Shown: positions 54,781-57,974 of the stretch, in pieces
Numbering within the stretch: the first letter of the stretch is position 1
Layout: the number at the start of each line of letters is the position of its first letter
From: a virus
Virus record (IMG/VR): IMGVR_UViG_3300003873_000002
Coordinates: 1-64,000 of that record
Direction: 5' to 3' (one strand)
Length of the DNA: 64,000 nucleotides
The notes under the pieces: generated by a model
Databases searched by the model: none
Seen by the model: the letters and a program-made list of their open reading frames with translations, nothing else
Told to the model about the DNA's origin: nothing
Program-made: the position numbers and the translations under genes

Positions 54781-55278
54781 ATGAAATTTGAAGATGTATA
54801 CAAAAAACCAACCATGTCTGGGTTTTTACATGTATATAAAGTCGACGACAACGGAGAAGAAGAAGAAATTTTTGCTGAAAAGAATCTTGTTGTAAATCAG
54901 GCATCATGGATTTTACGCGATTTAATGTTTGGTTCAGACGATGATCGTATTTCACAAATTTATTTTGGTGACATGAATCTTGTACCCACTGACGACCTTA
55001 AAAATATTAACCCACCTGCGTTAACAGATACTGATTTGGCGAACAAGCTTTATGCAAAAGCAACAACCAAAACAATAGAAACTTATGCAGATCACCCAGC
55101 AATTCGGTATGAAACAACATTAAACAAAAACGAATTTAATGGTGATGGTGAACAGCTTATCACAGAATATGCTCTTGCGACTATCAATAATAGAATTTTT
55201 ACACGCAAAACACGAGCTGCGATTTATAAAGATAATGAAAGCACATTGAAATTTGTTTGGTGGTTAGTATTTAACTAA
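54781..55278 (+). CDS. Tail/baseplate-associated protein, 165 aa
   Basis: ATG 54781 after AACGGAGATAATT. Sequence begins SGFLHVYKVDDNGEEEEIFA, KNLVVNQASWILRDLMFG, then ISQIYFGDM, the layout of a phage family I know only as tail-region structural (GxL.vY....G.e.....kNLvv..g...la.Ll.G......i..m.fG). It ends IYKDNESTLKFVWWLVFN. It is the last gene of the plus-strand virion block and is followed by a strong terminator. Confidence 0.65.
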   Translation: MKFEDVYKKPTMSGFLHVYKVDDNGEEEEIFAEKNLVVNQASWILRDLMFGSDDDRISQIYFGDMNLVPTDDLKNINPPALTDTDLANKLYAKATTKTIETYADHPAIRYETTLNKNEFNGDGEQLITEYALATINNRIFTRKTRAAIYKDNESTLKFVWWLVFN

Positions 55279-55305
55279 AAAATTAAAAATTAAAATTAAT
55301 TTTTT

Positions 55306-55328
55306 AAAGCGCAGTTTGCGCTTTTTTT
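55306..55328 (+). terminator. Rho-independent terminator ending the structural block
   Basis: AAAGCGC, loop AGTTT, GCGCTTT, then further T. It marks the end of the plus-strand late genes. Confidence 0.85.
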
Positions 55329-55543
55329 GTGCGTTTTTTTATTTGTTTTTTATTTGTTTTTTATTTGTTTTTTATTCATTTTTGTCCATTTTTGTCCATT
55401 TTTGAAATCGTGTATATTCCTTTTATACACAAATCGTTCACTTTAAGAATATTGCCAGTTTTGTAAGATATATTCATACAGATTTACACAGATTCACACC
55501 AATTAGAAATTAAAACAAAATAAAACAAAATAAATCAAACAAA

Positions 55544-55777
55544 AATTATTTAAATGCGCAGTATGCGATTATTTTTTATTGGTATACCATAAGACATTTT
55601 TAAAGATATTGTCACGTGATGAGCTTTATATTAAGTTTAATGATGAGTTTATAATGCGTTCAACGGTAAGACAATATGGGGCTTATACTGAAGTGCTGTT
55701 TATATCTACTTGAATTATTTAAATGCGCAGTATGAGATTATTTTTTTATTGGTATACCATAAGACATTTTTAAAGAG
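55544..55777 (+). repeat. 63-bp direct repeat pair with conserved GGTATACC
   Basis: 55544-55606 and 55713-55777 are almost identical (AATTATTTAAATGCGCAGTA, then GATTATTTTTTATT, then GGTATACCATAAGACATTTT). They are 169 bases apart. Part of the unit (AATGCACAGTATGAGATTAT) also occurs at 24001. The second copy is followed by an 18-bp palindrome (55785-55802, CATACAA-CGCA-TTGTATG), similar to one at 13628-13647. No ORF. Confidence 0.85.
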
Positions 55778-55940
55778 ATCGTCGCATACAACGCATTGTA
55801 TGAGGTTTAAACTATATTTATATCACTAAACATTTACAAACATTTACAAACATTTACAAATATTGTGCATATTTTTTATAATCATGTGAAATTTATTTTG
55901 ATTTTTATTATAAATCTTACTTTATAAACTAATCAATGGA

Positions 55941-56703
55941 TAACTTATTGATTTTAAACAGAAAACACACAAATATAAAATAATAAAACTGTAACATATT
56001 GATTTTAAAAGAGAAAACCCCACCAAATCCACATCACAAAAAAATAAATCATGATTTTGGAATGCAATAACTCGTTGAATTTAAACAGAAAAGGTCAAAT
56101 CTGTACACGTAAAAAAAGTTTTTTGGAACCATGAAATCATTAACTCGTTGAATTTAAACAGAAAACACTAAATCTGTACAACAAAAGGTTATAAATTGTG
56201 ATATCTAGAGAATTCATTAACTCGTTGAATTTAAACAGAAAAGGTCAAATCTGTACACGTAAAAAAAAGTTTTTGGAAATTGTTCTACACCATAATATCA
56301 CCAACGCGACAACCATGTCAAGCCCACGAGCACGCTCCGCTATTACATCTGAAACATATATGTTACTTAGTAATATATATTTTATATAGAAAAGTGTTTC
56401 TAATTTTACACCGTGTACAAATTTGATGTTTTTCATTTAAAATCAACAAGTTAAAAAATGCGCCTTTTTTACCCTTGGTTTAAAACAGGCCGAAAAGTGC
56501 GCAGTTTTTGAGCACATGAAAATTTTCATGTTAACTTGTTGATTTTAAACGAAATTTGTTTTTCTGATTTTCGTAAAATCATGTGAAAAACCAGCAGTAA
56601 CTTGTTGATTTTAAAAGAAAAACAAATACATTCTAAATGGGACGGTATATATGTAAAATCAACAAGTTACCACTGGTTCCTAAAGCAAAGAATCAACGAG
56701 TTA
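55941..56703 (+). repeat. Iteron-like cluster: ten 18-bp elements in both orientations
   Basis: Consensus TAACTTGTTGATTTTAAA. Forward copies start at 55941, 55992, 56068, 56141, 56218, 56532 and 56598. Reverse copies lie at 56436-56453, 56652-56669 and 56686-56703. Several copies extend to about 42 bp with GAAAA, TCAAATCTGTACACG; the inverted copy at 56412-56453 keeps this extension. The 1.8-kb region is gene-free and lies between convergent gene blocks. It could be a replication origin, a partition or packaging site, or a regulator-binding array. Confidence 0.8.
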
Positions 56704-57065
56704 CAGTCGACCCACAAAAAAAACTTTTTTGTGATTATTTATTTCTATAGGTAATTTTACGCATATTTTTTTTAAATCAGCCAGGAAATTTTGGAGATTT
56801 TTTGATGAGATTTTATGGGTTTTATAAAAATTTTTTATAAAGATTTGTACATGATTTGTACATGATTTGTATATTTTTATAAATGTGTGTAATGGATACA
56901 AAAGAACGCGCTTATTTAAGCTATATGTGACAATATTATTTTCTGACTTGGTAAGTATATTAATAGAAAGAACGCGTTGTATACATGCGTTTATGTTGTT
57001 TTATTATTAATTATCGATAGGTGATATGTAAGATTGAGTTGTCTCATGTCATTGGGCGCTGGTTA

Positions 57066-57356
57066 TTATTTGTTGTGTTTACCACAAACTTCATCCACTG
57101 CCTCAAGTTTACTATTAAGAATGTCAATTTTGATTAAGGCTTCCCTAAATTTAATACCAAGGTCATTAACAGTCATATGTTTTTCCATTTTGGGAGGCTT
57201 AACAGGCTTAATATCAGGCATTTTGCATTTAACAATCTCTATGCTGTTGATATATTTTGTTTCAGTGATGACTTTGGGTTTTGTTTGTTCCGCTGAACAA
57301 CCAATTAATATAAACGGGACTAAGCTCAGTGTTAAGAATTTTGTTTTCATGCGCAT
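57066..57356 (-). CDS. Outer-membrane spanin subunit (Rz1-like lipoprotein)
   Basis: 96 residues, minus strand. The signal peptide KTKFLTLSLVPFILIGC has a lipobox with Cys20, so the mature protein is an outer-membrane lipoprotein. Lys- and Pro-rich residues (PDIKPVKPPKME) follow, typical of Rz1. It starts inside the 3' part of the Rz-like gene in another frame (95-base overlap), the classic nested spanin arrangement. With the Rz-like protein it fuses inner and outer membranes after peptidoglycan degradation. An alternative start is six bases later (ATG AAA). Confidence 0.8.
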   Translation of the reverse strand: MRMKTKFLTLSLVPFILIGCSAEQTKPKVITETKYINSIEIVKCKMPDIKPVKPPKMEKHMTVNDLGIKFREALIKIDILNSKLEAVDEVCGKHNK

Positions 57357-57741
57357 TTAACTTTTCTATTATGGATTTATTTTCTAATTTAATATATTTT
57401 ATCGTTGTTTTGTTTCTGGCAATTACAAATGATAATCTTGCTGAGACCTTAGCATTAATTGATTCTAATCTTAAACGTTCATCATTTGCTTTTTTATTAT
57501 TATCATTAATAATTTTTTTAAGATCCTCTACTTCTTTGACTTTTAAATTAAATTTTTTAGTGATGAAATCTAAATTATGTTGATATGACAACCGTTGTTT
57601 ATCTATTATTAATTGCATACTATTTTTTGTTGTTGATGATCCGAATTTATACCCTGCACCAAAAACTATCACAGAAATCACAACAACCATTATAATTTTT
57701 GGGTTCAAGAATCCTTTAAGTAAATTCAATGCTATAAACAT
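57262..57741 (-). CDS. Inner-membrane spanin subunit (Rz-like)
   Basis: 159 residues from the ATG at 57741, preceded on the minus strand by AAGGAAAATATA; a longer frame start at 57813 lies within the holin gene and is rejected. One N-terminal transmembrane segment (NPKIIMVVVISVIVFGAGYK, about 13-32) is followed by a long periplasmic coiled coil (KVKEVEDLKKIINDNNKKAN) with many charged residues. The start overlaps the holin stop (TAATG). Partner of the lipoprotein at 57066. Confidence 0.8.
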   Translation of the reverse strand: MFIALNLLKGFLNPKIIMVVVISVIVFGAGYKFGSSTTKNSMQLIIDKQRLSYQHNLDFITKKFNLKVKEVEDLKKIINDNNKKANDERLRLESINAKVSARLSFVIARNKTTIKYIKLENKSIIEKLNAHENKILNTELSPVYINWLFSGTNKTQSHH

Positions 57742-57974
57742 TATATTTTCCTTGATATATCTGTTACTGCATTGCCAATAAAATATGCTAGTATAATGAC
57801 TATAAAGCCCCAAATGAATGTATCTGCGTGAGCTATATCAATACCAAAACTTTCCAATGCAAGTATTATCCACAATGATAGAAATGATAGCCATGTAATT
57901 CTTCTTCTTTGCACCCAATATATTGATAATGCCTTATTATCCATATAATCGAGTATTTTTTTGCTATCAGTCAT
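57741..57974 (-). CDS. Holin-like membrane protein
   Basis: 77 residues, minus strand, with two transmembrane segments (ITWLSFLSLWIILALESFGI, about 26-45, and FIWGFIVIILAYFIGNAV, about 53-70) and a positively charged segment before the first. Size, topology and place immediately before the spanin genes argue for a class II holin. No endolysin gene is seen in the window. The upstream gap carries the CATTTAAAGG array. Confidence 0.7.
   Translation of the reverse strand: MTDSKKILDYMDNKALSIYWVQRRRITWLSFLSLWIILALESFGIDIAHADTFIWGFIVIILAYFIGNAVTDISRKI

Follow-up and report, generated by a model that had tools for sequence, protein, structure and literature searches.

The window (the whole stretch of DNA analysed, 64,000 nucleotides) corresponds to bases 1-64000 of a virus record that is 154,123 bp long. 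At about 55 kb its plus-strand genes finish with an ORF at 54781-55278 (+; phrog_5417, function not assigned) and a terminator-like hairpin at 55306-55324 (+); the last large ORF of the minus-strand genes running towards it lies at 57262-57813 (-) and is Rz-like by eye. No notable ORF was found from 55278 to 57066, which bears out the sequence-only reading of a convergent, gene-free gap of ~1.8 kb. Of the two overlapping ORFs within 57066-57813 (-), one has a lipoprotein-like and the other a membrane-anchor-like start and, again by eye, they look like an Rz/Rz1 spanin pair.

The gap holds ten copies of an 18-bp element, here called A, spread over 55941-56703 (0.76 kb) with seven forward and three reverse, just as had been noted beforehand. 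Nine of these, at 55941-56669, were recovered at three or fewer mismatches, where shuffled sequences gave a mean of 0.84 and at most 4; the tenth, at 56686-56703 (-), is shorter, with 5 mismatches over 18 bp and its AATCAACGAGTTA part intact. Start-to-start spacing is irregular, at 34-218 bp. Reading from the left, two 18-bp matches (55941-55958 and 55992-56009, both +) precede three forward ‘composite’ units, in which A is joined through ~9 bp to a second element, B (TCAAATCTGTACACG): one at 56068-56109 (A at 56068-56085, B at 56095-56109), one at 56141-56182 in which B is a variant, and one at 56218-56259. Then comes a TA-rich central core (56346-56411), an imperfect palindrome (ATATATGTTACTTAGTAATATATAT) whose inverted repeat has 11-bp arms, a 3-bp centre and one mismatch, and directly beyond it an inverted B-A composite at 56412-56453 (-); the 42-bp extended copies that had been described, one of them inverted, are thus all present. 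Further copies of A follow at 56532-56549 (+), 56598-56615 (+) and 56652-56669 (-), the latter two forming a long inverted pair as its left and right arms (z -5.85 when 56590-56680 is folded as DNA), before the short tenth copy closes the series. Taken together with two copies of a left-flank element (55572-55609 and 55742-55779, both +), these features form a module, M1 (55572-56838, +), as delimited by self-BLAST and alignment. The core of M1 contains the least stable 40-bp stretch of the module, which ranks in the lowest 0.46% of the record for stability; in the two further modules described below it is the flank, and not the core, that contains the least stable stretch, and many intergenic stretches elsewhere are equally unstable.

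The 18-bp element had been thought not to recur elsewhere, which holds inside the window and fails for the 154-kb record, where pattern search and self-BLAST both find the array three times. M1 (55.57-56.84 kb) matches 152991-153749 (85%) and 96948-97727 (83%), both inverted, and these define modules M3 (~152.99-154.12 kb) and M2 (~96.95-97.97 kb), respectively; the modules measure ~0.8-1.2 kb and are spaced 41 and 56 kb apart. The similarity of M1 to M2 and M3 spans 0.7-0.8 kb, with the left flank shared further: the left-flank element has four copies in the record, at 55572, 55742, 97853 (-) and 154086 (-). Across the whole record, element A has 32 matches at up to 3 mismatches (the reversed pattern has 4), of which 27 belong to the three clusters and the other 5 lie elsewhere; with the limit set at 2 mismatches 25 remain, and 30 Markov simulations averaged 0.4. 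The element is therefore clustered in exactly three modules and is not scattered genome-wide. An exact 18-mer search of viral_contigs hit 53 stretches, with one match in each, which we take as chance; two longer patterns gave no match, nor did a BLASTN search of the array region against phages.

Comparison of the three copies shows where the constraint lies. Pairwise identity over sites and core is 278/282, 290/300 and 273/282 (97-99%), and over the remaining sequence 322/430, 336/440 and 318/407 (75-78%), a difference that was reached by 0/762 circular label shifts. In the three-way alignment, in which unalignable islands separate the conserved blocks, the columns invariant across all modules number 148/175 for A, 65/66 for the core and 278/463 for other sequence. 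For B the computed figure is 59/59, which is slightly flattering, as the inverted B was set 3 bases off in this count (56415-56429 instead of 56412-56426) and at least one column varies with the correct limits. Small ORFs within the modules were rejected as genes, the conserved part being invariant at the level of bases and the rest unconserved. With elements and core near-invariant and spacers diverged, selection appears to act on small, binding-like sites; the proposal of a binding array is thus well supported by three paralogous copies whose spacers have drifted around fixed elements.

As for the phage itself, the record carries genes for topoisomerase, terminase, head protease, major head protein and sheath, a replication set comprising family-B polymerase, gp32, UvsW-type, DnaB-type and Dda-like helicases and a clamp-loader-like ATPase, and a ribonucleotide reductase gene, and on this combined set we class it as a T4-type phage. 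It starts within a plus-strand frame truncated without its start and ends within the flank of M3. Gene order and size suggest a near-complete circle: in relatives, the helicase gene that here lies left of M3 is close to the topoisomerase gene, here at 20 kb, and the gene order of the related, 155-kb genome G001 wraps round. About 2 kb from M2 sits a flagellin-like gene (99469-100293; Flagellin_N and Flagellin_C), whose nearest cellular relatives, at ~60%, are those of Hydrogenovibrio/Thiomicrorhabdus; among phages, G001 has a distant relative. The flagellin-like gene hints, and only hints, at a gammaproteobacterial host of the Hydrogenovibrio/Thiomicrorhabdus kind, in which IHF would presumably be found.

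The modules sit at all three boundaries between blocks of genes, which run on the plus strand to 55.3 kb, on the minus strand at 57.3-96.6 kb and on the plus strand again at 98-152.6 kb (blocks of 56, 40 and 55 kb); the exceptions within the third block are an ORF of 186 aa at 100175-100735 (-) and some shorter ones. M1 lies at a convergent junction between two gene ends, M2, in inverted orientation relative to M1, at a divergent junction between two gene starts, and M3 after the last plus-strand gene; since the record opens in a plus-strand frame that lacks its start, the junction at M3 is probably a tandem one. The position of the modules is therefore independent of transcription.

In relatives, nearly all genes run in one direction. 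The related sequence L204 has a 62% relative of the gene to the left of M1, followed on the same strand by genes with relatives in the M2-side half of the minus block, of which one begins with 25 residues in common (best matched by 88699-89184) and another is related to 84703-85047; G001 carries relatives of 84703 and 85652 on its plus strand. Judged on these few homologues, the middle block is reversed with respect to both L204 and G001. The homologues, the all-minus strand of the block and the opposite orientations of M1 and M2 together make an inversion between these two modules the simplest reading, and we suggest that the 40-kb middle block was probably flipped in place by M1-M2 recombination; this would offer a mechanism for the inversion of large segments in lytic phages. 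Within the block, at 86.9-96.6 kb (-), at least five genes share an N-terminal motif of ~25 residues with the L204 gene, possibly a docking peptide common to fibre proteins. The gene adjoining M2 encodes an RCC1-repeat protein (94510-96600), perhaps a fibre-type beta-propeller, as its PHROG matches include a tail protein.

Synthesising these observations, we propose that the modules may be replication origins of the iteron type, present in several copies and serving as recombination sites as well, a model to which we assign about an even chance. In this model, arms of repeated sites (A alone, or A joined to the 15-bp B) would flank the TA-rich palindromic core; B would serve as the binding site of a protein from the phage or its host, and a bending protein of the IHF/HU kind may bind A. 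The core would then melt and load the T4-type replisome (family-B polymerase, gp32, DnaB-type and Dda-like helicases, UvsW), whilst several near-identical origins would supply homologous sites to the recombination machinery, such that recombination between M1 and M2 could have flipped the middle block. Counting towards this proposal are the iteron-like arms (M1 has repeated, initiator-sized sites, as iteron-type origins do), the melting-prone core of M1, the T4-type replisome, the place at block borders and the layout seen in related phages. The sequence-only reading had remarked that an origin could account for the gap being kept; an origin remains a plausible candidate, albeit not as a single one kept in one gap, given three copies at differing junctions. 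A change in skew at 56 kb does not single out M1: the skew follows gene strand and its turn there is explained by the strand switch, so a single origin placed at this maximum was rejected. Third-position skew corrected for strand showed no shift at M3 (-0.051 ± 0.031 at the end of the third block and -0.025 ± 0.024 at the start of the first), which weighs against the origin proposal, as do the flank position of the least stable stretch in M2 and M3, the equally unstable intergenic stretches elsewhere, and the lack of a common motif among T4 origins. Also on the negative side, a search of the record with Pfam models found no Rep_3, ParB, ParA-type (AAA_31) or HU/IHF gene; the initiator search used the Rep_3 model alone (0 matches), and phage proteins without an assigned function remain candidates.

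The reversed 40-kb block, bounded as it is by two inverted modules, could also be explained if the main role of the modules were to bound exchangeable segments, through homologous or dedicated recombination, with replication starting elsewhere. Segment inversions bounded by repeat regions are described for the Campylobacter group II phages CP21 and CP220 (PMC4546147), and a role of the group II repeats as recombination substrates is favoured by another set of authors (PMC2853527). However, no tyrosine or serine recombinase was found in the record with models (PF00589 and PF00239) that match 14/14 and 10/14 control genomes, respectively, and homologous exchange alone leaves invariant small elements amid diverged spacers unexplained. 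We therefore regard recombination as the main role as unlikely, whilst keeping it as a second function within the origin model.

The same small elements might instead be partition, condensation or packaging sites, at which a structural protein, for example host IHF/HU, organises or marks the genome. Element A holds WATCARNNNNTTR, which we take to be the IHF consensus; 19 of the 66 perfect matches in the record lie inside the modules, which make up 2.5 kb, and much of the variation between sites falls at the four free positions of this consensus. Set against this, the left-arm TTGAA sites violate one of its fixed positions, the consensus was selected only after the sequence had been seen, and neither ParB (PF02195) nor a ParA-type protein (PF13614) was matched in the record. 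Such an architectural role strikes us as quite improbable; the fit of element A to the consensus in 19 sites nonetheless makes IHF/HU binding a testable sub-hypothesis.

Transcription control, or a noncoding RNA, is harder still to accommodate. Were the modules promoters, enhancers or RNA genes, M2 would be well placed between divergent genes, and the M1 gap does contain 23 promoter-like sites against 15.1 (sd 4.1) in shuffles; M1, however, lies between two gene ends, and a promoter role therefore cannot explain it. Nor does element A occur singly at genes, and no Rfam family reaches its gathering threshold in the gap, where weak microRNA-type and TarB matches score far below theirs, so that we consider explanations of this kind very unlikely. 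That the modules are a mobile noncoding element copied three times would account for dispersed copies, but selective conservation, old divergence, the failure to find element ends and the exact placement at block borders make this a highly implausible alternative.

Against this background we looked for counterparts in other phages. Three relatives, G001, G007 and G011, were found through a capsid-protein search (G007, G011 and other records being fragments), and CP21 and CP220 were chosen for their repeat regions, after PMC4546147. By tblastn, the proteins of the record with a match numbered 41 in G001, 32 in CP220, 31 in CP21, 18 in G011 and 17 in G007, and 9-14 in each of V1031, Ab1TP, Va2, IME392, G013 and phiLo; a helicase query found no relative in viral_contigs, and a peptidase query weak relatives only. 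Among the 12 genomes and records compared, multi-copy noncoding modules of similar size are present only in CP21 and CP220; L204, searched separately, has no array. Loss of the array in close relatives had been named among the findings that would refute the sequence-only reading: the array is indeed absent from relatives, all of those compared being distant. The lack of a module in the 155-kb G001 means that the wider group does not need an origin of this type. Two candidates were discarded along the way: a gene-poor stretch of G001 (61.5-70.1 kb) holds 26 tRNA genes, and the large repeats of G007 are coding by ORF context and irrelevant to the modules. These are long 72-bp repeats within several ORFs, which probably encode repeat-rich surface or fibre proteins.

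Several known origins offer partial likenesses. Iteron plasmid origins place repeated sites beside an AT-rich stretch; they differ in that our record lacks a Rep_3 match and has bi-oriented sites to either side of its core. Herpesvirus origins occur in three copies, with sites that flank a TA-rich centre, a likeness of layout and an analogy only. Another such case is T4 oriE, a cluster of direct repeats in a T4-type phage, where the iterons are described as having an ill-defined role and where oriE, oriF and oriG are each found close to a strand switch (PMC3016281); unlike our three near-copies, it is a single locus with evenly spaced 12-nt repeats. The T4 origins lack a shared motif, and no role has been demonstrated for the iterons (PMC3016281). 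Three copies of one compact, conserved module in a T4-type phage would open the sequence basis of origin choice to direct test. How an origin may be mapped is illustrated by profiles of read depth in ICP1 (PMC7145576).

The closest known counterpart occurs in Campylobacter group II phages (Firehammervirus CP21 and CP220), in the form of their repeat regions. Here, four mostly extragenic regions of 1-2.9 kb divide the genome into segments of 28-55 kb; each has two arms of repeat units that flank unique sequence, CP21 and CP220 differ by inversions of segments, and recombination is the only function given in the portions of that paper available (PMC4546147). A T4-type myovirus background, multi-copy regions that split the genome, arms around a conserved core and inverted segments are common to both systems. 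The arms differ, being long tandem arrays of mostly 71-97-bp units in the group II phages whereas the array here consists of ten short, irregular, bi-oriented sites, and the modules number three. The 13-bp core of the group II unit, AAACTTAAAGCAA, has 46 and 72 matches at up to 1 mismatch in these two phages, and 2 in our record, both outside the modules; because it is absent from the modules, we do not file these as group II repeat regions. Between the group II arms there is also a TA-rich core, of which the available text of PMC4546147 and PMC2853527 makes no mention; when up to 7 mismatches are allowed, 3/4 regions of CP220 and 4/4 of CP21 contain it, and at up to 6 it has no match outside the repeat regions of either phage. 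One 7-mismatch match in CP220 (42259) falls just beyond the region limit chosen here, and reversed-core controls gave 1-3 matches each, one of them within a region in each phage. In the open-licence literature, as far as its accessible text goes, we found no paper that describes the module or calls the group II repeat regions origins. We speculate, tentatively and with the balance of probability against us, that our phage and the Campylobacter group II phages share a plan in which three to four large segments are bounded by one module that is both origin and recombination site. If so, segments could flip or swap and yet each would stay beside an origin, and, in contrast to T4, a phage of this kind would carry one common sequence at each of its origins; the group II repeat regions, so far unexplained, would then also gain a possible function as origins.
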